A DNA stretch of 64,000 nt from Fimbriimonadaceae bacterium (GTDB lineage: Bacteria; Armatimonadota; UBA10988). Below, in pieces: positions 48,203 through 63,025 of this stretch; the first letter of the stretch is position 1, and each line of letters opens with the position of its first letter. The DNA lies in the NCBI GenBank assembly GCA_020850355.1, contig JADZEX010000018.1, positions 124,001 through 188,000 on the forward strand, in the 5' to 3' direction. Under the pieces are notes generated by a model that made no database searches, was not told where the DNA came from, and was given only the letters and a program-made list of their open reading frames with translations. The position numbers and the translations under genes are program-made.

Positions 48203-48867
48203 TGTTGGTTTGCAGCCAGTGCGGCACGCTCATCCAGGTGGCGGGCCATGCCTGCCCGGCCTGTGGGCACAAGGGCTCGATCGACCGTCGCTTCTGGCAC
48301 GGCGAGGTGCTGGAGCCGCCCGGCACGACCGACCTGGCGACCGCGCATGTCAGCGCCGCCGGGACGCTGCCCGAAGAGCAGCGCGCCTGGACCCCCTGGC
48401 TGGCGGCGGCACTGCTGCTCCTGCCGTGCGGCGCGGTGTACGTCGCGGCTACCAATCTGCGCCGGATCGGCGCCGCGCCGAAGGACGCCGTCAGTTACCT
48501 GCCGACCGCCTTCCTGGCGCAGACCCTGGTGACTGCGGCGGCCGGGGCGCTCGGCCGCAGCCAACCGCTGGCGGCGCTGGGCCTGCTGGCGGCCTTCAAC
48601 GTGCTCGTCGCGGCGCTGCTGGTCCGCTGGCAGGCGGCCCCGGTGGCGGCTCGGCGGGCCGAGTTGCCGGGACGCCACAGCCCCGGGACCGATGCCCTCG
48701 GCACCTTGCTGGTGGCGGTGCTGGTGGGCTTGCTGGTGAGCGGCGTGACCTTCCGGTTGGGCGACCGGCTGGCGGACGGCGAGATCTCGAGTCTCGTCCG
48801 CCAGGCGCTGCCCGCCCCGCCGGCGCCCGCCGCACCTCATGAGATGGTGATGCCGCCGATGGGCTAG
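48202..48867 (+). CDS. Zinc-ribbon membrane protein
   Basis: 221 residues, unrecognised. The N-terminus has a zinc ribbon (LVCSQCGTLI, CPACGH; two CxxC pairs), followed by about four hydrophobic helices (PWLAAALLLLPCGAVYVAAT; AFLAQTLVTAAAGALG; LAALGLLAAFNVLVAALLV; TLLVAVLVGLLVSG). The ribbon should face the cytoplasm. It is translationally coupled to the lyase gene (TGATG) and followed after seven bases by a TPR gene, so the three form one operon. Confidence 0.75.
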   Translation: MLVCSQCGTLIQVAGHACPACGHKGSIDRRFWHGEVLEPPGTTDLATAHVSAAGTLPEEQRAWTPWLAAALLLLPCGAVYVAATNLRRIGAAPKDAVSYLPTAFLAQTLVTAAAGALGRSQPLAALGLLAAFNVLVAALLVRWQAAPVAARRAELPGRHSPGTDALGTLLVAVLVGLLVSGVTFRLGDRLADGEISSLVRQALPAPPAPAAPHEMVMPPMG

Positions 48868-48874
48868 CCTGGCG

Positions 48875-50362
48875 ATGTTCGATTCGACGTGGTACCCACC
48901 GTTGCTGACGCTGGCCATCTTCGTGGTGGCCCGCGACGCCTGGTGCCATGCCTGGTACCCGGTGCGCGCCCGCGTCCACGCCGAGCAGGGCGAATGGGCG
49001 CTGGCCTGCCTGGCCTGGCAGGCCTACCTCGATGTCTGGACCCTCACCGGCGGCCCTGGCAAGCTGGCCGCCCGGCTGCAGCTCGGCCGTTGCGAGCTGA
49101 ACCGCGGCAATGCCGCAGCCGCCCTGGCGCACTGCGAGGCGCTGCTGCAGCGGCGGCTTGGTCACCTGGAGGCGGGTGTGCAGCGCCTCCGCGCCGACAG
49201 CCTGACGCGGCTCGGCCGCCACGAGGAGGCCGCAGCGGCGAGCGAGCGGGCGGTCGAGCTGGGCGGCGGCCGCGCGGAGCACTCGCTGGCGCTGCTGTCC
49301 GACGAGATCCGGGCGCACGACGCCGCCGGCCGCTGGCGCGAAGGGTTGACTGCCCTCGAAGCGTTGGCCGAGACGGCCCTCAAACTGGTCAGTGAGGAGC
49401 CGCTGCTGCAAATTCGCGCGCGGCTGGCCCGCCGGCGGCTGGAGCTCGGCTTCTACGAGGCCGCCGCGATGACCGCCGAGTCGGTGCTCGCCCGGGCCGG
49501 CCTGGAGCCATCGCTGCAGTTGGCGGCCCAAGCAGTGACGGCGCGGGCCTACCTGGCGATGGACCGCCTCGACCAGGCGCGCCGCGACGCCGAGGCGGCC
49601 TGGCGGCGGGCCTGCGAGATCGGCGACCGGGAGGCCATTTTGGACACCGGCCTGACGCTGGCCGAGGTCGCCCAGCACCGCGGCGACTACGTCGGCGCGA
49701 TGCGCCAGTTGCAGGAGGTGCGCGAGGTCGGCGGGCACGGCCGTTGGCTGGCGGCCCTCGGGGAGGCCGAGCTGCTGGCCGAGTGGGGCCGCCACGCCGA
49801 GGCCGGCCGCGCCTTCGAGCAGGCCCGGGCCAACTTGCCGCAGGTTGCGGAGGCTGGCCCGCACCCGGCGCTCTTGGCCGCCCTCTGGGAGGCCGGCGCG
49901 CGGGCTGATCAGGACCCCACGGCGGCCCTGCAGATCCTGCGGCCCCACCTGGAGTCGCCCTGCCCCGACCCGCGGCTGCGCGTGCGCCGGGCGGCACTGG
50001 CAGCCTGGCTGCTGACCGTCGCCGACGATCCCGCCGCCGCCGAGCAGGTTGAGGCGATGCAGGCCGGCGCCGCCGACTTTGCCCACGACCGGCACCTGCT
50101 GGTGGAGTGCGACCTCGCCGCAGCCCAGATCGCGCAGTACCAAAACCGCCCGGCCGACGCCGCCAACCTGCTGCGGAGCGCGCTTGAGCGGCCGTGCCAG
50201 AAGCTTGGGCGGGCGGCCATCCTGCTGGCGCTCGGCGACCTGGAGCAGCGCCTCGGGCGCCTCGATGCCGCCACCACCGCCTGGGCCGAAGCCGCCGCCG
50301 GTCACGCCGAAACCGAAGCCGTGGTGCTGGCTCGGCAACGCCTGCAGGTGGGCGCCGCCTGA
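48875..50362 (+). CDS. TPR-like helical-repeat protein with N-terminal membrane segment
   Basis: 495 residues. An N-terminal hydrophobic helix (WYPPLLTLAIFVVARDAW) may anchor it. The rest is a long array of helical hairpins of TPR type (GEWALACLAWQAYLDVW, GRHEEAAAASERAVELG, GDYVGAMRQLQEVREVG, GRHAEAGRAFEQARANL). No catalytic domain. It is probably a scaffold for a membrane complex, perhaps with the zinc-ribbon protein encoded seven bases upstream. It converges with the SGNH esterase gene. Confidence 0.75.
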   Translation: MFDSTWYPPLLTLAIFVVARDAWCHAWYPVRARVHAEQGEWALACLAWQAYLDVWTLTGGPGKLAARLQLGRCELNRGNAAAALAHCEALLQRRLGHLEAGVQRLRADSLTRLGRHEEAAAASERAVELGGGRAEHSLALLSDEIRAHDAAGRWREGLTALEALAETALKLVSEEPLLQIRARLARRRLELGFYEAAAMTAESVLARAGLEPSLQLAAQAVTARAYLAMDRLDQARRDAEAAWRRACEIGDREAILDTGLTLAEVAQHRGDYVGAMRQLQEVREVGGHGRWLAALGEAELLAEWGRHAEAGRAFEQARANLPQVAEAGPHPALLAALWEAGARADQDPTAALQILRPHLESPCPDPRLRVRRAALAAWLLTVADDPAAAEQVEAMQAGAADFAHDRHLLVECDLAAAQIAQYQNRPADAANLLRSALERPCQKLGRAAILLALGDLEQRLGRLDAATTAWAEAAAGHAETEAVVLARQRLQVGAA

Positions 50363-50393: not shown

Positions 50394-50420
50394 GCGCCCT
50401 CCGACCGGCGGTCAGGGCGC
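50394..50420. terminator. Hairpin between convergent TPR and SGNH genes
   Basis: GCGCCCT and AGGGCGC with an inner GACC/GGTC pairing. It overlaps the stop region of the SGNH gene and follows the TPR stop by 32 bases. Confidence 0.55.
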
Positions 50421-51173
50421 TGGGCGCAGCCAGCCGGCCAACGGGCAGTCCGGCAGCTCGCGCATCGCCGCCGCCAGGACCGCCGCCGTGACCGCGGCGC
50501 CGGCTGGCGTGGTGTGGGTGTGGTCGGTCGGCCCAAAGTACTCGGCGGCGACGCGGTGCTGGCCCATGGCCTCGTAGCGTTGCGCCACCAGGTCGTTGAG
50601 ATCGAGCCAACGGGCCCCCGCCGCCGCGGCCGCTTCGCGCGACCAGAGTCCATAGTCGGGGGTGTTGCGGGCCACGCGCCCATCGACCCAGAGGTTGCGC
50701 GGCACCGGCGAGAGGACGAGCACCGCGGCGCCGGCGGCCTGGGCCTCGGCCACGTACCGCCGCAGGTACCAGCCGTAGGTATGCACCACTTCCACTTCGC
50801 CGGTGGCGGGGTCGGTGACCTCGGCGGTCTCGTCGCCGTTGCCCTTCAGCGACGCGCGGCGCCGGGGGTCGCTGAGGCCACCGCCATCGTTGTGGCCGAA
50901 CTGCAGCAGCACCCAGTCACCCGGCCGCAGCAGCGCGCGGAGCTGGTCCCACAGCCCTTCGCGCAGAAAGGTGCGACTGCTGCGTCCGCCGCGGGCGCGG
51001 TTGACCACCTGCACTTGCGCCGGATCCCAATGCTCGGCGAAGGGCCGCCCCCAGCCCTGCTGGCCGGCGGTGGAGTTGCTGACGGTCGAGTCACCCACCA
51101 GGTAGATGGTCGGCAACGCTGCCGGCGGGGCGGCGAGCAGCGCGAACACGCAGAGCAGCCCGGACCAAGGCAT
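50412..51173 (-). CDS. Secreted SGNH hydrolase, rhamnogalacturonan acetylesterase-like (CE12)
   Basis: 253 residues with a signal peptide (GLLCVFALLAAPPAALP). SGNH blocks: I YLVGDSTVSN (nucleophile Ser), II RGGRSSRTF (Gly), III LLQFGHNDGG (Asn), V DHTHTTPAG (Asp and His). This set and spacing match carbohydrate esterases that remove acetyl groups from pectin-like polymers. It agrees with the other polysaccharide-active enzymes of the window. The ATG is preceded by GGGAGG. A parS-type site lies 33 bases upstream of the start. Confidence 0.88.
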   Translation of the reverse strand: MPWSGLLCVFALLAAPPAALPTIYLVGDSTVSNSTAGQQGWGRPFAEHWDPAQVQVVNRARGGRSSRTFLREGLWDQLRALLRPGDWVLLQFGHNDGGGLSDPRRRASLKGNGDETAEVTDPATGEVEVVHTYGWYLRRYVAEAQAAGAAVLVLSPVPRNLWVDGRVARNTPDYGLWSREAAAAAGARWLDLNDLVAQRYEAMGQHRVAAEYFGPTDHTHTTPAGAAVTAAVLAAAMRELPDCPLAGWLRPAP

Positions 51174-51206: not shown

Positions 51207-51222
51207 TGTTTCACGTGAAACA
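51207..51222. promoter_or_regulatory. parS site 1 (ParB-loading site)
   Basis: TGTTTCACGTGAAACA, a perfect 16-bp palindrome identical to the bacterial parS consensus. It lies in the 67-bp gap between the SGNH gene and the TPR gene. Confidence 0.9.
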
Positions 51223-51240
51223 CGCCGCCCGACAGACTGT

Positions 51241-51867
51241 CTAGTGCTGCGCCCAGAACACCAGCAGCGCGCTCAGCAGGCCGAGCAGGGCCACGATCCC
51301 GCCGCCGCAGCCGGCCTTCTTGCCAGCCTTGGCGTCGCCGCCCTTCCGCAGCTCGGCCGCCGCCGCCATGACGTCGGACGTGGCGGTCTTCTTGGCCGGC
51401 TTGGCACCGAAATCGAAGTCCAGGCCGGTCAGGTCGATCCCGCCGAGGCCACCGCCCGGTGCCACCGCCGAGCTGCCATCTTTGGTGATCTGCTCGGCTG
51501 CCTTGGCCGTCTGCTCGAAGGCGGTCTTGGCCTTGGCGTGGTTCGGGTCGTTCAGCAGCGCTACATTGAACTGGCCGTGCGCCTCCCGCAGGCGGTCCTG
51601 CTTGGCGATCGCGAAGCCGAGGTAGTAGGCCGCGTCGGCCGAGGAGCCGTCGAGTTCGGCGGCGCGCTCGAAAATGCGCTCGGCGTCTTGCCAGCGCTCA
51701 CGCTTGGCCTGCGCCAGACCGAGGTACATCGTCAGCCGGAAGTTCTCTTTGTCGTACTCGATGGCCTGCCGTAGTTGCGGCACGGCCGCTTCCATGTCAC
51801 CGCTCTTGAACGTGTCGATCGCTCGTTGGGTGACCTCCTCCGGGGTCGGGAGCGCGCTGTCCGCCAT
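51241..51867 (-). CDS. TPR protein with C-terminal membrane anchor
   Basis: 208 residues. Three TPR repeats at the N-terminus (about 10-115; RAIDTFKSGDMEAAVPQLRQ, LAQAKRERWQDAERIFERA, AKQDRLREAHGQFNVALLN), a flexible Gly/Lys linker (about 130-185), and a C-terminal hydrophobic helix (CGGGIVALLGLLSALLVFWA) that reaches almost to the end. This is a tail-anchored layout with the TPR part in the cytoplasm and no signal peptide. GAGGAG precedes the ATG and a perfect TATAAT lies 34 bases upstream. Function unknown. Confidence 0.75.
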   Translation of the reverse strand: MADSALPTPEEVTQRAIDTFKSGDMEAAVPQLRQAIEYDKENFRLTMYLGLAQAKRERWQDAERIFERAAELDGSSADAAYYLGFAIAKQDRLREAHGQFNVALLNDPNHAKAKTAFEQTAKAAEQITKDGSSAVAPGGGLGGIDLTGLDFDFGAKPAKKTATSDVMAAAAELRKGGDAKAGKKAGCGGGIVALLGLLSALLVFWAQH

Positions 51868-51900
51868 CGGGGTGTCTCCTCACTGCCTCAACTGGCGCCC

Positions 51901-51906
51901 ATTATA
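51901..51906 (-). promoter_or_regulatory. -10 box of the tail-anchored TPR gene
   Basis: TATAAT on the minus strand, 34 bases before the ATG; no good -35 at 16-18 bp. Confidence 0.5.
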
Positions 51907-51955
51907 ACCAACCGGCGCGCTGCGCGCTACCGCCCCGGCGGCGGCGAGGCCGACC

Positions 51956-51984
51956 TTGCGAGCGGACCCGGACTGTGGTAGCGT
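51956..51984 (+). promoter_or_regulatory. Promoter of the agarase-like hydrolase
   Basis: TTGCGA (51956-51961), 17-bp spacer, TAGCGT (51979-51984). Start near 51991, leader about 12 nt. Confidence 0.5.
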
Positions 51985-52002
51985 CCCCCGGCGGAGAGTC
52001 AC

Positions 52003-53997
52003 GTGAGCGAGCGCAGCGCCTGGGAGTTGACGCAGCGACTGGGTGACCTGCTGCCGATCGAAGGCCCGGCCGCCCTGCCCGGCGCGCGGGGCTACCGCGC
52101 CAGTGCCGTGGGCGATGGGCTGGCCTGGGCCGTGCCGGCCGGCAGCCTCAGCAGCGGCGACGAAGTCGGCTGCGACCTGCTGCTGGAGGGCACCCACCTG
52201 GCGGTCTTCCAGCTCACCTTGCAGGCCGGCGCCGGGGGTCCGGCGTTCCACCTGACCTTCTCGCTGCTCAACCAGTGTCAGGCGCGGCTGCGGCTGGCGT
52301 TGACACACCTCGATCAGAACCGCTGGTCGCTCGGCCGCGAAGGAGCTTGTCTGAAGCGAATGTGCGGCGGCGACCGACTGGACCCCGCCAGCATCGACCG
52401 GGCGACGTTGCAGGTGATCCGCAAATCGGCCGAGCCAGTGTGCTTCTGCCTCACGCCACTGGGCGGCGGCCCGGCCCAGCCACCATTGACCAGCCCGCTG
52501 CTACCGGCCGGGCCGCTGCTCGACGAGCTGGGACAGAGCCGGCTGCACACCTGGACGGGGCGGACGCGCAACGCCGCGGCGCTGGCGGAGCGCCTGCAGG
52601 CCCAGGCCGCCGCGGCCCCAGCACAGGCCTGGCCCGCTTCGTGGAGCCGCTGGGGTGGCTGGTCGGCGCAGCAGCGAGAGGCCACGGGGTGGTTCCGGCG
52701 CGAGCACGATGGGCAGCGCTGGTGGCTGGTCGACCCGGCGGGGCATCCCTTCTGGTCAACCGGCCTGGACTGCGTCGAGGTGCGCACCGAGGCCAAGTTC
52801 GATCTCCTGGAAGCGGCCCTCAGCGAGCTACCCGACGACGACGGCAGCGGCCTGATCCGCTACGGCGACGCCGCGCGCGGGGGCCAGGCGGTGAACTACC
52901 TGGCCGCCAACTTCCGCCGGGTCTTTGGCGACGGCTGGCTGGTGCAGTGGGAACAGCTTGCCCTCGCCGAGTTGCGCCGCACGGGCTTCAACACCGTCGC
53001 CAACTGGTCCCGCTGGGAGACCGCGGCCGCGGCGGGCTTCCCCTATGTCCGGCCGCTGCACTTCGCGCCCACTCGCACGCAGCTGGTCTTCCGGGACTTC
53101 CCCGATGTCTTCCACCCCGGCTTCCTGGCCGACGCCGGCGAGTTCGCCGAGCAGCTCCACCCGACGCTGACCGACCAGGCGCTGATCGGCTACTTCCTGA
53201 TGAACGAGCCGACTTGGGGCTTCGCCAAGCAGACCCCGGCCGAGGGGATGCTGCTGAACTACCCCGCCGGCCCGGCGCGCGTCGCCTTCGCCGAGTTCCT
53301 GCGCCGGCGCTACCCCGACGACACGGCCCTGCGCGCCGCCTGGGGGCCGACCGCCAGCTTCGAGCAGGCGGCCGGCGGGGCCTGGCCCGGGCCCTACGGT
53401 CCCGCTGCCTCCGCCGACCTGGCCGACTTCAGCTCGCACCTCGTGAAGCGCTACTTCGATCGGCTCAGCGCCGCCTGCCGGCAGGTCGACCCGCACCACC
53501 TCAACCTCGGCGTGCGCTACTACACCGTGCCGCCGGGCTGGGCCCTGGCCGGTATGCGGACCTTCGACGTGTTCAGCCTGAACAGCTACACCGACCAGGT
53601 CCCCGCCGACCGCCTGGCCCCGCTGGCCGAGCGCCTGGAGATGCCGGTGCTGATCGGCGAGTGGCACTTCGGCGCCCTCGATGCCGGGCTCCCGGCGACG
53701 GGCATCGGCCACGTCGCTGACCAGGCTGCCCGCGGCCAGGCTTACCGGGTCTACCTCGAAGACGCCGCCGCGCAGCCCTGGTGTGTTGGCGCCCACTGGT
53801 TCACGCTCTACGACCAGAGCGCTCTCGGCCGCTTCGATGGCGAGAACTACAACATTGGCTTCGTGGATGTCTGCCACCAGCCCTACGAACCCCTCGCCGC
53901 GGCGGCCCGCGCCGCCCACGAGGTCCTCTACGCGGTGGCAGCCGGCGAGCAGCCGCCCTACGACCAACGGCCGGAGTACCGGCCGAGGTTGTTCTGA
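52003..53997 (+). CDS. Beta-agarase-like glycoside hydrolase (GH50/GH42-like)
   Basis: 664 residues, no clear signal peptide. The N-terminal 200 residues form a CBM-like sandwich. The catalytic barrel begins with GWFRREHDGQRWWLVDPAGH and PFWSTGLDCVEV, the typical opening of agarase-type enzymes. The acid/base candidate is in GYFLMNEPTWGF (Glu near 401) and the nucleophile candidate in MPVLIGEWHFG (Glu near 553). FNTVANWSRWE is a conserved barrel strand between them. Start GTG 52003 with GGAGAG upstream. Polymer specificity cannot be told. Confidence 0.78.
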   Translation: MSERSAWELTQRLGDLLPIEGPAALPGARGYRASAVGDGLAWAVPAGSLSSGDEVGCDLLLEGTHLAVFQLTLQAGAGGPAFHLTFSLLNQCQARLRLALTHLDQNRWSLGREGACLKRMCGGDRLDPASIDRATLQVIRKSAEPVCFCLTPLGGGPAQPPLTSPLLPAGPLLDELGQSRLHTWTGRTRNAAALAERLQAQAAAAPAQAWPASWSRWGGWSAQQREATGWFRREHDGQRWWLVDPAGHPFWSTGLDCVEVRTEAKFDLLEAALSELPDDDGSGLIRYGDAARGGQAVNYLAANFRRVFGDGWLVQWEQLALAELRRTGFNTVANWSRWETAAAAGFPYVRPLHFAPTRTQLVFRDFPDVFHPGFLADAGEFAEQLHPTLTDQALIGYFLMNEPTWGFAKQTPAEGMLLNYPAGPARVAFAEFLRRRYPDDTALRAAWGPTASFEQAAGGAWPGPYGPAASADLADFSSHLVKRYFDRLSAACRQVDPHHLNLGVRYYTVPPGWALAGMRTFDVFSLNSYTDQVPADRLAPLAERLEMPVLIGEWHFGALDAGLPATGIGHVADQAARGQAYRVYLEDAAAQPWCVGAHWFTLYDQSALGRFDGENYNIGFVDVCHQPYEPLAAAARAAHEVLYAVAAGEQPPYDQRPEYRPRLF

Positions 53998-54110
53998 GGG
54001 AGGGCCGGCACCGCTCCCCTCCGTCGACGTGAGGTCCGCAGCAAGTGCGTGACACAGGGCGGCCGAGCTGGGCCGCAAACTGGCAGCAGGCTCCGCTGCC
54101 ATGCACCGCG

Positions 54111-54157
54111 GCGCACCACGCGGGCGTCCTGGACACTATGGCGCACCACACGGGCGT
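54111..54157. repeat. 30-bp-spaced direct repeat in the gap before the HIT gene
   Basis: GCGCACCACGCGGGCGT (54111-54127) and GCGCACCACACGGGCGT (54141-54157), 16 of 17 bases identical, spaced one 30-bp period. It lies upstream of a -10 (TATGAT, 54196-54201), so it may be a binding site pair for a regulator. Confidence 0.55.
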
Positions 54158-54218
54158 GGTTCGCGCGGTGGCTGGTTGCACCGTCCGACCCGTGGTATGA
54201 TGGGTGCCGGAGCAGTCC

Positions 54219-54764
54219 ATGACTGGTGGCTCGCAGTCACCTCCAACAGAATGCCAGGTCTGTTGCTCGAATGCCGGTCGCCGACGGATCTCGCCAGGTG
54301 TTCAGATCTACCGTGGGAGCCATTGGCTGGTGGAACACGGCTACCCCTGCTCGCGTCCGGGCTGGGTGGTGGTGGTGCTGGCCACACATGCCGAGGCGCT
54401 CCATGATATTCCCCCCGAAGCAGCCACGGAGTTGGGGCAGTTGCTGCTGGCAGTTGGCAGCAGCCTACGCGAGGTGATGGGGTCCACGAAGGAGTATGTC
54501 TCCTGCCTGTCGGACTTGACTGGCTTCGAACACATTCACTTCCACCTCGTGGCGCGCCTCCCGACCGACGCGGGCCAGGTCGCAGGCAAGCAACTGCTGG
54601 TGACCCTCCGGGCCGCTGACGGCGTGGTCCCGGCCGGCGTCCGCCGGGATATCCAGCGGCTGTGTCGGTCGCTCCGCCCAGCGGTGACCCGCCGGATGGC
54701 GGCGTACGCGGCAGGCGAAACTGCACGGCCAGGCTTGGTGCCAGCGCAGGCCGCTGCGGGGTAG
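54219..54764 (+). CDS. HIT-like nucleotide-binding protein
   Basis: 181 residues. The HIT motif is intact (HIHFHLVA, His105-His107-His109), following GWVVVVLATHAEALHDI and an alpha-helical region. An N-terminal Cys cluster (CQVCC) could bind zinc, as in many HIT proteins. HIT enzymes hydrolyse or transfer nucleotides such as Ap4A or aminoacyl-AMP. ATG 54219 is chosen because GGAG lies six bases upstream and the -10 at 54196-54201 places transcription after the alternative GTG at 54204. It converges with the nucleotidyltransferase gene, the stops one base apart. Confidence 0.8.
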   Translation: MTGGSQSPPTECQVCCSNAGRRRISPGVQIYRGSHWLVEHGYPCSRPGWVVVVLATHAEALHDIPPEAATELGQLLLAVGSSLREVMGSTKEYVSCLSDLTGFEHIHFHLVARLPTDAGQVAGKQLLVTLRAADGVVPAGVRRDIQRLCRSLRPAVTRRMAAYAAGETARPGLVPAQAAAG

Positions 54765-54765
54765 A

Positions 54766-55782
54766 CTAGATGGTCAAGTACTCGAGCATGGCCTCTCCCC
54801 ACTGCTCGCGGTGCGCGTAGACGAAGCGGGTCAGTTCGGCGCTGACCACACCGGCCGTGACCCGCATCTGGCGGTACGCTGGCGACCGGTACCGTTCGTC
54901 GTAGCCATACTGCAGGGTGTTGCGTGCCGCGTCGTCGTGGATTGCCTCCAAGAACAAGTCGTAGGCGGCGAGCAGACGTCGGTACCCATCGTCGTGGAGA
55001 GCCCGGTAGACCGCGCAGATGCGCTCGAGCGGTGTCAGGTCCAGCATTGAGCGCAGATAGTCCGGTCCGTTGCTCTGGCGACTGTAGTTGAGCAAACGCA
55101 ACAGCAGGCCGGCATACATCACCACACGGCTATGCCGGAGTTTGCTGTGTCGCAACGCCCACTTCTCGCGTTCGTTCCAGAACTGGAACTGGTAGTTGAC
55201 GCAAATGGTCCGGAAGTACCTGATAGCATCATTGAGCAGGTAGACAGGGGCCTTGTGGCGTTCACGCTCCACGAGACCCAGGTAGTGCTCAAGGAGGGCG
55301 TCCGCGGCCTGGCGGCAGGCATCTGGGCCGTAGACCACTCGGCACTCCATCAACATCAGCAGACGCTGGGCGATCATGTCGAGCGTGTCTTCGCCGGCAC
55401 CGGCCACCGCCAGCAGTCTCGCCAGGTCCTGATGCCGATCCGGTGCAAACACGCCTTTGGGGTTGGGGCACGCCATTCCCAGCGCTTGCACCACCTGGGC
55501 GGTGGTCGCATAGACGGCTTGAATGACGTCCGCTTCCAACGGGCGCAGCGTCACCACGAGGAAGTCCAGGTCGGACACCTCCGAAGCCTCAAGGCGACCG
55601 TAACTGCCGGCCACCGCGAGACCCAGGTCGCGGCACTGGTCGCCACTCAGGGCTGCGGCCAGAGCGGCCTGCAATACCTGCAGCCGCTCTCGCGAAAAAG
55701 CCCACGCCGCGGCGAGGCGCGGGAAGGCCGCCAGAGGCTCGTCGCCGCCCAGGAAGTGCTCCGCAATCTGCAGCCGTGTCAT
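54766..55782 (-). CDS. Nucleotidyltransferase-fold protein (GlnD/DUF294-like)
   Basis: 338 residues. The polymerase-beta-type nucleotidyltransferase motif is complete: AGSYGRLEASEVSDLDFLVV (Gly59-Ser60, Ser70, Asp71, Asp73). A helical C-terminal region (about 130-338) has no recognised domain; it includes YLLNDAIRYFRTICVNYQFQ. Members transfer NMP groups to proteins, RNA or small molecules. The amino-acid composition (more Tyr, Asn, Gln) and looser codon use than neighbours suggest acquisition by transfer. Weak -10 (TAGGAT, 55814-55809). It may pair with the convergent HIT gene. Confidence 0.8.
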   Translation of the reverse strand: MTRLQIAEHFLGGDEPLAAFPRLAAAWAFSRERLQVLQAALAAALSGDQCRDLGLAVAGSYGRLEASEVSDLDFLVVTLRPLEADVIQAVYATTAQVVQALGMACPNPKGVFAPDRHQDLARLLAVAGAGEDTLDMIAQRLLMLMECRVVYGPDACRQAADALLEHYLGLVERERHKAPVYLLNDAIRYFRTICVNYQFQFWNEREKWALRHSKLRHSRVVMYAGLLLRLLNYSRQSNGPDYLRSMLDLTPLERICAVYRALHDDGYRRLLAAYDLFLEAIHDDAARNTLQYGYDERYRSPAYRQMRVTAGVVSAELTRFVYAHREQWGEAMLEYLTI

Positions 55783-55904
55783 GGTAAGCCTGCCCTGGCG
55801 CGCCGCACATCCTACCGTTCTTGCCGCGCTCGCCTGACCCGACGCCAGGCAGTCTGTCGAGGTTCCAGCAGCACATCTAATGTCACCGAGTATGTCGGCG
55901 GCCG

Positions 55905-57299
55905 CTACTCCTTCCCAGCCCCCGCCTTGCCGCCGATGTCGGCCGCGTCGGTGGTGGGCAGGTGCTGCGCCAGGGCCGCCTTGGTGGCCGCGTGCTCCGG
56001 CCGGGGGGCGAGGTTGGTGTACTCCAGCGGGTCGGTCAGCTCGTCGTACAGCTCCTCGTCACCGTTGGCGTAACGGATGTAGCGCCACTGCGCCGTACGA
56101 ATGGCGTGGTTGCGGTAGAGGTAGGTCGTCAGCGCGGGGCGGTCCCAGGGGCGGAGCGGCCGTTCGAGCAGCGGGCGGAGACTCGGGGCCGTGACATGCT
56201 CGGGAGTCGGCAGGTCGCAGAGGTCGCAGAGCGTGGGGTAGATTCCCATGAAGTCGACCGGCTGCGCGCAGGTGCCGCCGGGGCGGGTGACGCCGGGCAC
56301 GACCCACAGGTGGGGGCTGCGGGTGGCTTCCTCCCAGAGCGCGAACTTCCGCCAGTGCGATTTCTCGCCGAGGTGCCAGCCGTGGTCGCTCCAGAGACAG
56401 ACCAGGGTGTTGTCGCGGTGCGGGCTGGCGTCGAGCGCGGCGATCAGCCGGCCGATGTTCAGGTCGGTGTAGGCGATGCAGGCCAGGTAAGCTTGCACCG
56501 CTTCCTTCCAGCGCCCCGACTCGAGGATCTTGGCGTGGTCGCCGTCTGGCTTGGCCATCCGGCGGCCGGCTGGTGGCACATCGTCCAGGTCGTCAGCCTT
56601 CCAGGGCGGGAGCTGGATGCCGCTCAGCGGGAACAGGTCGAACCACTTCCGCGGCACCGCCCAGGTCATGTGCGGGATCTGGAAGCCGCAGGCCAGGAAG
56701 AACGGCTGGCGCTGCGGCTGGCCGAGGCGTTGGATGGTCCAGTCGGCGAAGGCATAGTCGCGGAGGTCCTCGTCGCGGCAGTCGAGCGGGGCGAAGCGGA
56801 TCCCGCCAATGCCGCCCTGGGCCTTGTTGCGGGCGTCGTTCGGCAGGTCGCCGGGACCGAGGTACTCGTCCCACTCCGGCCGCCGGGCATAGGATTCGTG
56901 GTAGATCTTGCCGGTCCCCCGGACGCTGTAGCCGGCGCGCCGGAAGGCCGCGGTCAGGGGCTGCTCGACCGGGACCACCGTGCGCCAGTCGTTGTTGTTC
57001 TCATAGACGCCGGTCTGGTGCGGCCGCAGTCCCGACATCAGCGCCGCCCGTGAGGCGTTGCAGACCGGCGCGGCGCAGTAGGCGTTGGTGAAGTTGACCC
57101 CGCGCGCCGCCAGGGCGTCGAGGTGCGGCGTCTTGGCCTGCGGGTGGCGCCCCAGACTGCCGATCCAGTGGTTCAGATCGTCGATGGCGATGAACAGCAC
57201 GTTGGGCCGGCTGGCCGAGCGGCCGTGCCGCAGGACTCCGAAGCTGCAGGCCGTGCCGGCGGCCGCTGACAAGAAGGTTCGGCGCGAGAGTTGGCGCAT
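55905..57299 (-). CDS. Tat-exported sulfatase (iduronate-2-sulfatase-like)
   Basis: 464 residues. The N-terminus MRQLSRRTFLSAAAG is a twin-arginine signal, so the enzyme is exported folded. The sulfatase motif CNASRAALMSG (Cys80 to Arg84, C-x-A-S-R) carries the Cys that is converted to formylglycine. Metal ligands are in FIAIDDLNHW (Asp40, Asp41) and in CLWSDHGWHLGEK. It cleaves sulfate esters from polysaccharides in the periplasm or outside. No FGE gene is in the window. Last gene of a series purA, GH99-like, EamA, sulfatase; 22 bp follow the EamA stop. Confidence 0.93.
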   Translation of the reverse strand: MRQLSRRTFLSAAAGTACSFGVLRHGRSASRPNVLFIAIDDLNHWIGSLGRHPQAKTPHLDALAARGVNFTNAYCAAPVCNASRAALMSGLRPHQTGVYENNNDWRTVVPVEQPLTAAFRRAGYSVRGTGKIYHESYARRPEWDEYLGPGDLPNDARNKAQGGIGGIRFAPLDCRDEDLRDYAFADWTIQRLGQPQRQPFFLACGFQIPHMTWAVPRKWFDLFPLSGIQLPPWKADDLDDVPPAGRRMAKPDGDHAKILESGRWKEAVQAYLACIAYTDLNIGRLIAALDASPHRDNTLVCLWSDHGWHLGEKSHWRKFALWEEATRSPHLWVVPGVTRPGGTCAQPVDFMGIYPTLCDLCDLPTPEHVTAPSLRPLLERPLRPWDRPALTTYLYRNHAIRTAQWRYIRYANGDEELYDELTDPLEYTNLAPRPEHAATKAALAQHLPTTDAADIGGKAGAGKE

Positions 57300-57321
57300 C
57301 GAGTGGCTCCCAGCCGCCGCC

Positions 57322-58200
57322 CTATTCGGCAGCGCTGGCGCCGGGCCCTTCCGCCGGCTGCCGCGCGATCAGCAGCGTCGCGCCCAGCACCAGCAGCCCA
57401 CCCCAGCACTGGGCCCCGCGCGGCGCCTCGCCGAGCAGCAGCCAGGCCGCCGCAATGCCGTAGACCGGCTCCAGGGCGGCGCTGACGCCGACCAGTCCGA
57501 CGCGCAGCAACGGCAGCGACCAGGTGAACAGACCGTGCGCGCAGCCCGTGAAGACCACCCCCAGCAGCACCAGCCAGGCGGCCTCGGGTGCGGTCAACGC
57601 CGTCAGCTGGCGGCCCGCCAGGGGCAGCAGCAGCACTCCGCCGACCAGCATCTGGCCGCCCGCCAGGCTGAGTGCCGGGACCGCCTGGCGGAGGCGCCGG
57701 TTGAGCAAGGTCAGCCAGGCGAAGGTCGCGCCCGAGGCGATCCCAGCCGCGGCCGCCGCGCCAGCGGTGCCGCTCGGACGCCAGTCGGGCACCACCCACA
57801 CCAGGCCGAGCATAACCAGTGCCACGGCCAGCAGATCGACGCGGGCCAGCGGCTGGCGCAGCCAGCCCCAACCGAGCAGCAGCACAAAGGCCGGGTAGCT
57901 GGCGAAGGTGAGCAGCCCAAGCGCCACCCCACCGCGCTGGATCGCCGCGAAGAAGAGCCACCAGTGCAGGCCGAGCAAGGCGCCACTGGCCGCCAGGAGC
58001 GGTCCCCGGCCACGCCAGGCGGCCCACGGCGACCGGCCCTGGGCGGCCAGCAGGAGCGTCAGGGCGAGGCCGCCGAGCAGGGCCCGCAGGGCGCTGATCA
58101 AGAGCGGCGGCGCGGTGACCTGCCGGCCCACCAGGCCGGCGAGACCGAACAGCAGGACAGCCGTCTGCAGCGCCAGCAGCGCCTGTCGGGTCGGACTCAC
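57322..58200 (-). CDS. EamA/DMT superfamily transporter
   Basis: 292 residues with ten membrane helices arranged as two EamA repeats (1-140 and 150-285). Repeat 1 shows LLGLHWWLFFAAIQRGGVAL, repeat 2 GCAHGLFTWSLPLLRVGLV followed by ALEPVYGIAAAWLLLGE, the standard end motif. Family members export amino acids, nucleotides or other metabolites; the substrate is unknown. The GTG start overlaps the stop of the GH99-like gene by four bases (GTGA). Confidence 0.9.
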   Translation of the reverse strand: MSPTRQALLALQTAVLLFGLAGLVGRQVTAPPLLISALRALLGGLALTLLLAAQGRSPWAAWRGRGPLLAASGALLGLHWWLFFAAIQRGGVALGLLTFASYPAFVLLLGWGWLRQPLARVDLLAVALVMLGLVWVVPDWRPSGTAGAAAAAGIASGATFAWLTLLNRRLRQAVPALSLAGGQMLVGGVLLLPLAGRQLTALTAPEAAWLVLLGVVFTGCAHGLFTWSLPLLRVGLVGVSAALEPVYGIAAAWLLLGEAPRGAQCWGGLLVLGATLLIARQPAEGPGASAAE

Positions 58201-59291
58201 GGTGCGGCGGGCCGCAGCGCCGCTGCCACAGCCCGGATCCGGGCGTCGCCCTCGCCGTGGGTCGGCGTCAGCCAGCCGCCCTCGTCGTTCTCGTTCCAGG
58301 CGTACAGAATCATCGCCTGCGCCGGGCAGGTCTCCGGGTTGGCTCGGGTCCAGGCCAGCGCCTCTCGGACGTGGGCGGTGAGCTGCTCCGGCGTCGCGTT
58401 GACCGCATCGCGCAGCGGCTGCTGCTGCTCGGGCGGCGTCGGGTCAGGCTGGGGCGTGAGCTTTGGGAACCAGGTCGGCGGGCGCTCGATTCGCGGGCGG
58501 GTGTCCCAGCCAGTGGTGGCGAAGGTGATGGTCTGCAGCTTGTGCTGTTTGACCAGCTCCCAGTGCCGCTGCCGCACCTGCGCGGTGAGATCGGCGTAGG
58601 ACAGCATCGCGCCGGCGTACTGCCCACCTGCGGCGTAGGCCGACCAGGCGTCGAACCCCAACTCGGCCAGGATCGCCGCGTCGTTGGGCGGCCACCAGCC
58701 CATGAAGGCGAGGTACGGCCGGCCGAGCCCGGCCGCCACCGCCTGGTCGCCCAGGCTGACGAAGTCGGCCTTGGTGAGCTGGTTTGGCTTGCCGAAGATG
58801 AACAGCAGCGGCCGGTTGCCCAGGACCTTGACGTAGTCGGCGGTCTGGAAGTGCTGCACCAGCCGCGGCCAGAAGGCCACCCCACGTCCGTCGAGACGAC
58901 CACCCTCCTCGACGAAGCAGTAGCGCAGCCCCTGCCGGACCGTGGACGCCTGATAGCGCCGCCGGGCGATCGTCAGGTTGCCCTCGTCGCCGTAGTCGAC
59001 GAAGGCCCAGTAGTCGAGCCCGGCCTCGACGGCGAGGGCGATTTCGCGGTCGATGGTCTCTTGCTGGTCGCCATTCAGGCGCACCGCGTCGGGGCCCAGG
59101 ATCTCGGCAAACCAGGGCAGCCGCCACTGGTACTTGCGCTGCCCGAGGGTCGACTCGACCTGGTCAACCGGCTGGCCCTCGCCATACCAGCAGTCCCAGC
59201 GGATGGCACCGACCAGCACCCGGCCCGCGTCGGCCGGCGCCACGCCGGCCTGCAACAGCGCAGTCAGCGCCAGGCAGGAACTCCACCCCAT
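58197..59291 (-). CDS. Exported GH99/WbsX-like glycoside hydrolase
   Basis: 364 residues with a signal peptide (SSCLALTALLQAGVAPADA). The body is a TIM barrel of the WbsX/GH99-like group: AIRWDCWYGEG, LDYWAFVDYGDEGNL, NRPLLFIFGKPNQL, YLAFMGWWPPND and the C-terminal ILYAWNENDEGGWLTPT, where AWNEWGEG is usual. Such proteins act on, or build, extracellular polysaccharides. The ATG at 59291 has GGAG seven bases upstream; the ATG two codons earlier would sit on that site. It starts 22 bp after purA. Confidence 0.8.
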   Translation of the reverse strand: MGWSSCLALTALLQAGVAPADAGRVLVGAIRWDCWYGEGQPVDQVESTLGQRKYQWRLPWFAEILGPDAVRLNGDQQETIDREIALAVEAGLDYWAFVDYGDEGNLTIARRRYQASTVRQGLRYCFVEEGGRLDGRGVAFWPRLVQHFQTADYVKVLGNRPLLFIFGKPNQLTKADFVSLGDQAVAAGLGRPYLAFMGWWPPNDAAILAELGFDAWSAYAAGGQYAGAMLSYADLTAQVRQRHWELVKQHKLQTITFATTGWDTRPRIERPPTWFPKLTPQPDPTPPEQQQPLRDAVNATPEQLTAHVREALAWTRANPETCPAQAMILYAWNENDEGGWLTPTHGEGDARIRAVAAALRPAAP

Positions 59292-59313
59292 CGCCATTCT
59301 CCGCGCGCTGGCT

Positions 59314-60654
59314 TCACCGCCGCGGGGCGATCTCTTCTGTGGCTGGCAGCGGCAGCACCTGCTCCCGGCGCGGGCCGACGCAGACGTAGGCCACCGGGCC
59401 GCAGGTGGCCGCGAGCCGGGCGACGTAGGCGCGCGCGGCGGCCGGCAGGTCCGCCCAGTCGCGGCAGTCGGCCAGGCTGCTGCGCCAACCCGGCTGCATC
59501 TCGCAGACCGGTTGGCAGGCGGCCAGGTCGACCGCCTCCGCCGGCGGGGTGGTGAGCCGTTGGCCGTCCAAGTCGTAAGCCACCACCAGGGGAATCTCGG
59601 CCAGGTCGCTGAGCACATCGAGCCCGGTGACCGCCAGTCCGGTCACGCCGCAGCGCCGGGCGGTGTAGCCAGCCAGCACCAGATCCAGCCAGCCACAACG
59701 CCGCGGCCGGCCGGTCGAGGTTCCGAACTCCTGCCCCCGCTCGCGCAGCCGCGCCGCCGCGAGGTCGTCGGCCTGGCTCGGGAACGGCCCGGCGCCAACG
59801 CGCGAACCGTACGCCTTGAGCACGCCGATCACCCGGTCGACCCGCGCATCGCGCAGGCCACTGCCGACACCCAGCCCGAGCGGGGTGCAGGCGCTGGAGG
59901 TGACGTAGGGATAGGTCCCCAGGTCGACATCCAGCAGCGCCGAGTGGGCGCCTTCGAAGAGCACCGTCTGGCCGTCCGCCAGCGCGGTGTCGAGCCAACT
60001 GGCGGTGTCGGCGAGGTACGGCGCCAGCCGCGCCGCGCACGGCTCCAGCGCCGCCAGCACGGCCGCCACCTCGAACGGCTCAAAGGCGCTCCCCGACAGC
60101 GCTGCGAGCGTCGTCAGCAGGGCGTTTTGGAGCGTCACGATGGCCGCGATCTTCGGCGCCAGGCGGTCGAGGCGGCGCAGCTCACCGGCGCGGATGGCGG
60201 TCAGTCGGTGGGCCTTGGCCGCGTAGGTCGGCCCGATGCCGCGTCCGGTCGAGCCGATCACCGGCAGTCCGAGCCGGCCGGCGGCCGCTTCCAGGAGGCG
60301 CTCCTCGGCCTTCTGCCAGGGCATCACCAGGTGTGCCCGGTCGCTCACCAACAGGCGGCCCGTCAGGCTGATCCCACGCTCGGCGAGCTGGTCGATTTCG
60401 GCCAGCAGTTGCTGCGGATCGAGCGCCACACCGTGGGCCACGACGTTGGTGGTGCCCGGAGTGATCACCCCCGAGGGGAGCAGGTGCAGGGCGAAGCGGG
60501 ACTCGCCGAGTCGGACGGTGTGGCCCGCGTTGGCGCCTCCGTTGAACCGCACGACGACGTTGGCGGTGGCCGCCAGGTGGTCGACCAGTTGGCCCTTGCC
60601 CTCGTCGCCAAACTGCAGGCCGACCACGCAAGTGTGGCGGACGGACTCGTCCAT
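59314..60654 (-). CDS. purA: Adenylosuccinate synthetase
   Basis: Joins IMP and aspartate with GTP to give adenylosuccinate, the first step to AMP. 446 residues. The GTP loop is GDEGKGQ (Gly16-Gln22), followed by RFNGGANAGHTV. Other motifs: STGRGIGPTYAAKAHR, LFEGAHSALLDVDLGTYPYV and STGRPRRCGWLDL. GGAG lies six bases before the ATG. A good promoter is inside the 3' end of the upstream CAAX-protease gene, so purA has a leader of about 167 nt with a GC-rich palindrome. Confidence 0.96.
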   Translation of the reverse strand: MDESVRHTCVVGLQFGDEGKGQLVDHLAATANVVVRFNGGANAGHTVRLGESRFALHLLPSGVITPGTTNVVAHGVALDPQQLLAEIDQLAERGISLTGRLLVSDRAHLVMPWQKAEERLLEAAAGRLGLPVIGSTGRGIGPTYAAKAHRLTAIRAGELRRLDRLAPKIAAIVTLQNALLTTLAALSGSAFEPFEVAAVLAALEPCAARLAPYLADTASWLDTALADGQTVLFEGAHSALLDVDLGTYPYVTSSACTPLGLGVGSGLRDARVDRVIGVLKAYGSRVGAGPFPSQADDLAAARLRERGQEFGTSTGRPRRCGWLDLVLAGYTARRCGVTGLAVTGLDVLSDLAEIPLVVAYDLDGQRLTTPPAEAVDLAACQPVCEMQPGWRSSLADCRDWADLPAAARAYVARLAATCGPVAYVCVGPRREQVLPLPATEEIAPRR

Positions 60655-60673
60655 GGTGCTCTCCGTCACGACC

Positions 60674-60689
60674 CGGACCCGCGGGTCCG
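60674..60689. repeat. GC-rich palindrome in the purA leader
   Basis: CGGACCCGCGGGTCCG, a perfect 16-bp palindrome 20 bases before the purA ATG, close to the ribosome site. It may be an operator or a hairpin that hides the ribosome site. Confidence 0.5.
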
Positions 60690-60820
60690 TGGCGGCCCGG
60701 CAGGCCGGTAGAGCACGGCCGGGCACTGGCTGCAAGCCGGAGCTTTGCCTTTTGCCGACCGGTCGTGACGTTGGGAGGTCGGTGATCCGCACCCTTGCGG
60801 GAGGCTCGCGGGCTGTCCGC

Positions 60821-61426
60821 TTAGGGCAGTGTAGCACCGCCGCGGACGCCTGCCAACTGCTCCCACGACCGCTCGCCGCGGGCCCCGGCAACCAGCGCTG
60901 CGCAGAGCCAAAGGTCGTGCACCGCGTGGACCAGCATCACCACCGGCAGGCTGCGGGTGACGACGTAGAGCCCGCCGAGCAGCACGCCCTCGACAAAGAC
61001 CGGCAGCAGCAGCGGCCGGAGCCGCCGGTCGGGCTGGTCGTGGAGCCCGGCGAAGAGCAGCGCCGTGACCGCCACCGCGAGGCGCGGGGAGCCGGTCAGC
61101 CGCTGCAGGCTGAGCTGCAGGAGGCCCCGGAAGAACAGCTCCTCCGCCGCCGCCAGCAGCGCCACGGCCCAGCGGTCGGCGGCCGTGTGGCTGGCGTAGA
61201 GCTGCCCCAGCGCCGTCAGCCGCGCGGCGTGCGCCGGGCCGTCGCGTGCCAGGAGCTGGCGGTGGATGGCGCGCGTCAGCAGCAGCAGCAACGCCAGCCC
61301 GCCCAGCAGCGGCAGCAGCGCGAGTCGCCCACAGGGCCCGCGGAAGCCGACCGGGAGCGTCGCCAAGACCAACAGGTTGGCCGTCAGCAGCGCCGTCCAC
61401 CAGCGTCGTTTCACGTGAAACAGCAT
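60821..61426 (-). CDS. CPBP family (CAAX/Abi-type) intramembrane protease
   Basis: 201 residues with about six membrane helices. The EExxxR motif is EELFFR (95-100), the next helix has ALLFAGLHDQP and the last MLVHAVHDLWL, the usual His/Asp positions. It is shorter than the other family member at 45.1 kb. Its N-terminus MLFHVKRR is encoded by a parS-type site, which constrains these residues. It starts three bases after the stop of the polytopic glycosyltransferase, so both are co-transcribed. Confidence 0.85.
   Translation of the reverse strand: MLFHVKRRWWTALLTANLLVLATLPVGFRGPCGRLALLPLLGGLALLLLLTRAIHRQLLARDGPAHAARLTALGQLYASHTAADRWAVALLAAAEELFFRGLLQLSLQRLTGSPRLAVAVTALLFAGLHDQPDRRLRPLLLPVFVEGVLLGGLYVVTRSLPVVMLVHAVHDLWLCAALVAGARGERSWEQLAGVRGGATLP
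60828..60856 (-). promoter_or_regulatory. Promoter of purA inside the CAAX-protease gene
   Basis: On the minus strand TTGGCA (60856-60851), 17-bp spacer, extended TGC, TACACT (60833-60828). Start near 60821. Confidence 0.7.
61407..61422. promoter_or_regulatory. parS site 2
   Basis: CGTTTCACGTGAAACA: 15 of 16 bases of parS with the 14-bp core GTTTCACGTGAAAC intact. It codes for residues 2-6 of the CAAX protease. Confidence 0.8.
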
Positions 61427-61429
61427 CGC

Positions 61430-63025
61430 TCACCTCGGCTCCAGGCGCTCCAGTTCGGACGGCAGCCCCGGCCCCGGCTGGCGGCGGTAGCGCTGGTCCA
61501 GCCAGGCCGCCAGCTCGCCGCGACCGATCCGATGGGTGCCGGCGAGCATCTCGAAGTTGCCGAGCAGCCGCGCCGGGTAGGGGTCGCGCAGACCCTCGAC
61601 GTAGAGCGGACCACCCGCGGCGGCCAGCGCCAGAGTCGGCGACAGCCAGCGTTCGAAGGCCGCACCCTCGAGCTCTTCTGGCGGCTGGTAGACCAGGTCG
61701 ATCACCCCGACGTCGGGTCGCACCTGGTGCACCAGCCGCAGCGCCGAGTTGCCGCACAGCACCAGGCTGGCACGGCTCGGCAACTGCGCCGCAACCTGCC
61801 GCGCGACGACCCACTCGTGGCCCCAGCGGGGGTACAGCGGACTCGGCAGGCTGGTCGGCAGGTTGGTCGCCAGCAGCGCGACCAGAGAGGGCCAAAGCAG
61901 CCAGCGACCACTGCCGGCGGCCAGCCGCCAGGCCGCCGCCAGCAGCAGCAGGGGGTAGAGCGGCAGCCAGTACTGCGGATCGCTGCCGAGCCAGATCAGG
62001 TTGAACACGGCCTGCACCGCGAAGGCCCAGGTGAGGATACCGCCGGCCGCGGTGCGCCGGCGCGGCCACCAGCCGGCGAGCGTCCACCAGCTCAAGGCGG
62101 CAGCGGTCAGGCCGTTGCGCAGCAGCGTCAGCCAGGCGGTCGGATCGACCAGCACCGGTTCCCCGCGCAACACCGCCTTGACGGCGGTCTCGCCAGCGCT
62201 GACCGGCCAGACCAGGCGGCCCAGACCGATCAAAGCGCGCAGCGCGCCGAGCACCCCACGCGCGGCGGCGAGGCCCTTGGAGTCTTCGTGGTGCAGCACC
62301 CACGACACGAACGCCGCCGGCGCCAGGACCGCCTCGCGCCAGGCCGCCAGCAGGTAGCAGGCACTCAGCAGAACGACCGTCGTGGCGCCGAAGGCCAGCG
62401 CCGCCCGCCGCCCGCCACGGGCCGCGGCCACCAGCAGGGCCGGCAGCAGCACCACCAGATTCAGCGCCAGCAAGACCCCGCCGGCCGCGCAGACCGCCGC
62501 CAGCGCAGCGCTGCGCGCGCCTGGCCGGCCGCCCTCGCGCGGCCACAGCAGCCACAGCGCCGCCAGCTCCAGCGGCAGTGGGGTGATCCCGGTCTCGACC
62601 GTCCGCGCGTGCGCCCAGGGGTTGGCCGACAGCACGAACACCGCGACCAGCGCGCCAGCGCTGCGGGCGGAGAGGCCGGCAAGCTGCGCCAGCCGCCACA
62701 GCAGCCCGGCGCTGAGCCCGCCGCAGAGCGCGTTGCAGAGCTGCGGCGGGACCTGCTCCGGGCCCTGCCACCCGAGCATCTGCCAGCCCTGCAGCCAGAG
62801 CCGCAGCCACGGCGTTTGGAACAGGTGGTAGGCCCGCAGCCCGCTGCCGCTGCCCAGCAGCAGCCCGGTCTCCTTCAGACCATCGCCATCGGCCGCGACG
62901 TAGCAGGACGTCAGCGCATACCAGAGGGTGACCAGTCCGACGATCCGCCAGGCCACGACGGCCGGGGCCGGGCCAGGTGCGGCCGGATCGCCGGGGGCTG
63001 TTTCACGTGAAACAGAAGCGCTCAC
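61430..63025 (-). CDS. Polytopic membrane glycosyltransferase (GT39/PMT-like, GT-C fold)
   Basis: 531 residues with about 12 membrane helices. The layout is GT-C: first helix IVGLVTLWYALTSCYVA, then a large first loop with DGDGLKETG (acidic residues expected for metal or acceptor contact), and a soluble C-terminal domain (about 400-531; ASLVLCGNSALRLVHQV). Such enzymes use polyprenyl-phosphate sugars to glycosylate lipids or proteins at the outer face. The GTG start at 63025 overlaps the stop of the previous gene by four bases; a longer frame runs inside that gene and is not real. Codons 6-11 contain a parS site. Confidence 0.75.
   Translation of the reverse strand: MSASVSRETAPGDPAAPGPAPAVVAWRIVGLVTLWYALTSCYVAADGDGLKETGLLLGSGSGLRAYHLFQTPWLRLWLQGWQMLGWQGPEQVPPQLCNALCGGLSAGLLWRLAQLAGLSARSAGALVAVFVLSANPWAHARTVETGITPLPLELAALWLLWPREGGRPGARSAALAAVCAAGGVLLALNLVVLLPALLVAAARGGRRAALAFGATTVVLLSACYLLAAWREAVLAPAAFVSWVLHHEDSKGLAAARGVLGALRALIGLGRLVWPVSAGETAVKAVLRGEPVLVDPTAWLTLLRNGLTAAALSWWTLAGWWPRRRTAAGGILTWAFAVQAVFNLIWLGSDPQYWLPLYPLLLLAAAWRLAAGSGRWLLWPSLVALLATNLPTSLPSPLYPRWGHEWVVARQVAAQLPSRASLVLCGNSALRLVHQVRPDVGVIDLVYQPPEELEGAAFERWLSPTLALAAAGGPLYVEGLRDPYPARLLGNFEMLAGTHRIGRGELAAWLDQRYRRQPGPGLPSELERLEPR
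62999..63014. promoter_or_regulatory. parS site 3
   Basis: TGTTTCACGTGAAACA, perfect consensus, within the first codons of the polytopic glycosyltransferase gene (coding SVSRET). Confidence 0.9.

Follow-up and report, generated by a model that had tools for sequence, protein, structure and literature searches.

The window analysed here, a stretch of 64,000 nucleotides (C19:124001-188000) from the draft genome of a Fimbriimonadaceae bacterium (G000), raises the question why parS, the loading site of ParB, should occur in it three times and at gene borders. With up to three mismatches allowed, the 16-bp sequence TGTTTCACGTGAAACA matched the window at exactly three positions (51207, 61407 and 62999), where 0.01 matches are expected by chance. 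The exact 14-bp core is present in all three. The three sites reported earlier by a sequence-only reading of this DNA are thereby confirmed.

The first site (51207..51222), a perfect 16-bp palindrome, is intergenic and lies in a 67-bp gap between two minus-strand genes, one defined by gene calling (50412..51173) and the other encoding a TPR-repeat protein according to Pfam (51241..51867). The second site (61407..61422; CGTTTCACGTGAAACA, 15 of 16 positions, with the exact core) makes codons 2-7 of the gene of a CAAX-protease-like (Rce1/CPBP) membrane protein (60821..61426, minus strand; PF02517, E 2e-16). The ATG of this gene is found at 61426, 3 bp past the preceding stop codon (TGA GCG ATG CTG TTT CAC GTG AAA), and the N-terminus MLFHVKRR is encoded by the site. 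The third site, again perfect (62999..63014), directly follows a GTG which overlaps the upstream TGA (GTGA). If this GTG at 63025 is the start, the site provides the first codons of a large membrane protein gene (61430..63025, minus strand) with the N-terminus MSASVSRET; our home-made gene caller put the start later, at 62956. For this membrane protein no match was obtained in the Pfam and NCBIfam family search. The location at gene junctions, which had been pointed out before, holds for all three sites, and the statement that parS dictates N-termini (FHVK, SVSRET) is right if those two starts are used.

Two tRNA predictions fall into the same region. ARAGORN placed a tRNA-Ala (GGC) at 61094-61185 of the window, on the same (minus) strand inside the CAAX-protease-like gene, which is probably a false positive. 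A tRNA-Ser (GCT) at 48867-48965 (plus strand) extends across the predicted start (48875) of a 495-aa ORF, so that either the tRNA or the ORF start is wrong.

The scale of the phenomenon had been overlooked, as the genome contains 156 copies and most of them are located outside the window. The source genome (6.67 Mb in 117 contigs, completeness 95%, contamination 2%) was searched as a whole for the core GTTTCACGTGAAAC. This revealed the 156 exact cores, or 166 if one mismatch is allowed, compared to a composition-based expectation of about 0.002. The same pattern reversed gave 0 matches in the whole genome. The palindrome TGTTNCACGTGAAACA, which characterizes chromosomal ParABS systems, is thus represented three times in the window and 156 times genome-wide. 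A contig could be assigned to 153 of the 156 sites: 55 are on C96, 40 on C46, 22 on C22, 8 on C19, 7 on C59 and 21 on thirteen others. The 31 sites off the four main contigs (C96, C46, C22 and C19) are not placed relative to the origin. In the 476 kb of C96, C46 and C22 the parS core is the commonest 14-mer of any kind (117 copies), and the next palindromic 14-mer has 6 copies.

Could the count be inflated because a metagenome-type draft was wrongly assembled or binned? The genome is split into 117 contigs, and C46 and C59 overlap at their ends by 127 bp, within an array. However, the tetranucleotide profiles of the tested site-bearing contigs correlate at 0.98-0.999 and the contamination estimate is 2%. 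Almost all sequences flanking the groups of sites are unique, so they do not represent a duplicated assembly of one array, and an artefact as the source of the count is hardly credible. The shared end comprises the final 127 bp of both contigs (C46:91839-91965 and C59:38256-38382) and belongs to a parS array with a 25-bp pitch. It is a typical k-mer overlap, by which both contigs enter the same unseen continuation, either a repeat or a strain variant.

The distribution of the sites is far from even. C96 starts with rpmH, short rnpA- and yidD-like ORFs, a yidC-like and a jag-like gene, parA and parB, while C46 starts with dnaA, dnaN and recF. The identity of ParA, ParB, DnaA and DnaN is backed by Pfam or NCBIfam; the other names on C96 are a reading of the sequences. 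The orders rpmH...parAB and dnaA-dnaN-recF are the classic gene order around oriC. Because both contig starts display it, we infer that oriC lies between the starts of C96 and C46, which do not overlap, and that the coordinate on either contig would then roughly equal the distance from oriC. These two contigs make up 4% of the genome and carry 95 of the 156 sites (61%), a clustering near oriC as expected for ParABS, provided that the link deduced between the contigs is correct. Counted per 20 kb, C96 contains 10, 13, 6, 4, 6, 4, 10, 0 and 2 sites, C46 contains 11, 8, 12, 4 and 5, and C22 contains 6, 3, 1, 3, 6, 0, 2, 1, 0, 0 and 0. The site-bearing stretch reaches to 134 kb on C96 and to 92 kb on C46 and thus covers at least 226 kb. 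A compact region of 5-40 kb with about 1-25 sites, which is typical of chromosomal ParABS rather than defining, is clearly exceeded by at least 226 kb and 156 sites. This departure makes the system of G000 a variant of ParABS and not a non-member.

In this draft assembly C22 and C19 are unplaced relative to C96 and C46. The contig of the window, C19, is a sparse outlier with 8 sites in 213 kb and not the origin itself. The previous proposal that the right side of the window is origin-proximal is therefore unsupported, since oriC would lie between C96 and C46 and C19 is not linked to them. A plot of GC skew, which had also been suggested, was uninformative. The skew is close to zero on C96, C46, C22 and C19, even beside dnaA and parAB, so that the orientation of C19 and C22 is not readable from it. 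A chromosome that has a defined origin usually shows such a skew, and its absence could mean frequent rearrangement or multiple origins.

The genome encodes a single ParB-family protein (TIGR00180 above cut-off). Its gene, parB (C96:4828-5727), comprises PF02195, PF17762 and PF23552 (ParB_N, HTH_ParB, ParB_C), corresponding to the CTPase-type N-terminal domain, the HTH and the C-terminal dimerisation domain of ParABS proteins. Both CTP-pocket motifs, GERRWR(A) and ENLQR, are present, and the protein aligns to the Spo0J/ParB structures 1vz0, 6t1f and 6sdk. Directly before it lies parA (C96:3995-4828), which encodes a Walker-type ParA (KGGVGKTT; PF13614, E 1e-57). SMC (TIGR02168) is encoded on the contig of the window (C19:102232-105834). 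Judged by their sequences, ParA, ParB, SMC and DnaA are canonical. The assumption that the organism uses ParABS agrees with this full ParABS-SMC gene set. Neither a random genome-wide distribution of the motif nor a lack of parB, named beforehand as grounds against that assumption, was found: the distribution is non-random and parB is present. A DUF4446 gene (L085:6020-6508 on C96) is located two genes downstream of parB and may belong to the segregation neighbourhood.

As the sites lie between genes, the motif might instead serve as an operator for a different DNA-binding protein (a regulator or a Noc-like factor) and not as a loading site of ParB. This is highly improbable, because the core is exactly that of canonical parS and the only ParB-family protein is of the parS type. 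In Caulobacter numbering, Q173 and R201 mark Noc specificity (PMC7383237), whereas the protein of G000 has the parS-type R and G at these positions. Moreover, two exact copies and a third, degenerate one are found just before parA, where the related genome G001 also has a site. Nucleoid occlusion by Noc at NBS sites was considered separately and is excluded by the R and G residues, by the parS motif and by the score of the NCBIfam Noc model on this ParB (235.6, under the cut-off of 315).

The operator idea also conflicts with the gene context of the sites. Gene calls were made with the home-made caller, which assigned 94% of the DNA as coding. Nevertheless at least 118 of the 125 sites on the four main contigs are fully intergenic. 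In the dense regions (C96 0-140 kb, all 92 kb of C46 and C22 0-90 kb) about half of the gaps of at least 100 bp carry sites (9/20, 9/19, 14/26 and 9/23), compared to 2/15 in distal C22 and 3/46 in C19. Convergent gaps are occupied much more often than divergent ones (17/37 versus 8/72, p 8e-5). Such a preference is expected if ParB complexes must avoid promoters, while the avoidance of divergent promoter gaps is the opposite of what operators do.

A neighbouring site within 300 bp was found for 112 of the 125 sites. The sites form groups of 2-6 with a spacing mostly of 42-68 bp and centred near 55, and 55 groups were counted over the four main contigs. No convincing signal of helical phasing was seen in the spacing within groups. 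On C96 and C46 one group follows the next after about 1-13 kb, apart from a single gap of 27 kb.

Arrays of this kind might also stem from a mobile or palindromic repeat scattered through the genome (REP-like, or brought in by a phage or plasmid) which happens to contain the parS core, in which case their number would reflect copying and not centromere function. Some arrays of G000 are indeed clear tandem duplications (C46:8849, 28893 and 59153). In the more distant genome G119 several arrays on different contigs share 58-bp units which are 87-99% identical, so copying contributed there. For G000 the idea is mostly refuted. With the core masked, flank similarity of any kind was seen in no more than two pairs of groups, in one of them over 31 bp, and the base preference outside the core (first base A in 85%, the second modest) ends about 2-3 bp out, so that the shared sequence beyond the core which marks REP- or MITE-like repeats is missing. 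No viral contig contains more than one closely spaced pair of sites. The concentration at oriC and the avoidance of divergent promoter gaps also argue against copying. We regard a mobile repeat as a very unlikely explanation overall, and for G000 an origin from mobile elements is rejected on account of the unrelated group flanks. Within the few tandemly duplicated arrays of G000, whose pairs are non-independent, the spacers differ at 90 of 531 positions (17%) and the cores at 2 of 168. The spacers diverge while the cores stay fixed, which indicates that the core is kept as its surroundings drift. In G119 no pair of spacers within one array passed the threshold for this comparison.

To which extent is the expansion shared by relatives? 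In the phylum comparison GTTNCACGTGNAAC was searched in 291 genomes. G000 has 161 matches and G119 has 90, followed by genomes with 14 and 12 and the remainder with 0-9. Genomes of the same family contain only 1-2 sites each, while G119 belongs to another family of the phylum. From this contrast, parS expanded at least twice. G119 resembles G000 in its 90 sites, in arrays with a pitch of about 58 bp and in a ParB which has also lost the glutamine described below. It differs in a G instead of an A next to the core and in the homologous repeat units shared between its arrays. The comparison with G119 covers the sites, their arrays and ParB. The arrays of G119 (L244-L253) contain up to 10 sites and many are situated at contig ends. 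This suggests that the arrays break the assembly and that the true count exceeds 90.

In the relatives parS sites often adjoin parAB. In G001 parA is immediately preceded by a variant site, TGTTGCACGTGCAACA, and a second site lies just beyond the gene that follows parB; this arrangement probably resembles the ancestral state. The two G001 variants, TGTTGCACGTGCAACA and TGTTGCACGTGAAACA, frame parAB at L183:661 and L183:2646, and G000 retains one hybrid of them, GTTTCACGTGCAAC, before parA at C96:3862. Synteny with G001 and G003 is confined to the block yidD-yidC-jag-parA-parB and the next gene; consequently most of the gaps with arrays have no ortholog for comparison.

A residue of ParB may be connected with the expansion. 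Q162 of Caulobacter contacts parS and is conserved in both ParB and Noc (PMC7383237). Among 43 ParBs of the phylum, 40 have Q at the equivalent position; the three exceptions are G000 with A, G119 with L and G022 with G. That the two most expanded genomes are among these three has a probability of 0.003 if taken alone, but the link was noticed post hoc and some shared changed column is expected by chance in about 1 of 6 cases. The position is the sole one of 50 conserved columns which is changed in both G000 and G119. G022 has lost the glutamine and yet possesses only 6 sites, and the Actinobacteria among the named genomes have His at this position with low or high parS numbers. The ParB of G119 also lacks the contact serine S172. 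We hypothesize that the lost contact would weaken loading at each site and that this would be offset by the number of sites. At three further near-invariant positions the ParB of G000 also deviates; one of these is the D of ENLQRED, found in 41 of 41 relatives and replaced by N in G000.

How unusual is this number compared to known systems? When 45 named genomes were searched in the same way, 0-8 sites were obtained, except for Streptomyces sp. BR123 with 25, and the published high end is 20-23 (PMC7333895). In our literature search, which did not reach most subscription papers, no count above about 25 sites came up. The count of G000 is some seven times the highest reported count found and is accordingly the largest found, not with certainty the largest. 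The ParABS system of Streptomyces (20-25 sites in the oriC region) has the same parS core and many sites over a wide region. It reaches only about one sixth of the number in G000, its sites are mostly singles or pairs, and groups in half of the longer intergenic gaps, a feature of G000, are absent from the Streptomyces listing. Myxococcus xanthus has 22 parS sites in 3 kb (PMC3899335), a similarly dense multi-site array near parAB, which however is one compact cluster with the variant core TGTTCCACGTGGAACG in contrast to the 55 groups of G000. Bacillus and Caulobacter share parAB near oriC, the same type of site and SMC, but have about 5-10 parS sites.

Taken as a whole, the three sites of the window are very probably peripheral members of a greatly expanded regional ParABS centromere. 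One ParB would load at about 156 identical predicted parS sites, and ParB-CTP clamps would do so at every group. In model species ParB spreads over 10-15 kb (PMC5815017, PMC9242446). Adjacent ParB domains should therefore fuse, and the merged spreading zones would give a continuous domain at least about 230 kb long. ParA would move this domain and SMC would load along it. Starting from the sites linked to parAB, the set of sites probably expanded outwards by local tandem duplication and by repeated fixation of new sites, which probably could persist only close to oriC and at a distance from promoters. In Caulobacter additional parS sites are tolerated only if they lie no more than about 500 kb from the native cluster (PMC5815017), and the concentration near oriC matches such a zone. 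More tentatively, each site could be a weaker loader because of the lost parS contact of ParB. The most far-reaching version is a truly regional centromere, in which about half of the longer intergenic gaps across hundreds of kb around oriC are ParB loading stations and which evolved independently at least twice in the phylum together with the loss of a ParB contact residue, many weak loaders replacing few. We put this forward with somewhat less than even confidence.

The variation in the number of parS sites, their clustering and the cause of centromere expansion are questions raised in reviews (PMC7333895, PMC5815017). G000 represents a natural experiment on the growth of a bacterial centromere, run to an extreme at least twice, for which the close relatives with 1-2 sites are the likely starting state. 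In most bacteria parS is confined to 5-40 kb, and according to the SMC-collision view loop extrusion is hindered by widely spaced loading sites (PMC8357415). This view is challenged by dozens of predicted loading stations over hundreds of kb in a genome with a standard SMC. The correlation with the ParB residue would offer a testable trade-off between the strength of a loader and the number of sites.
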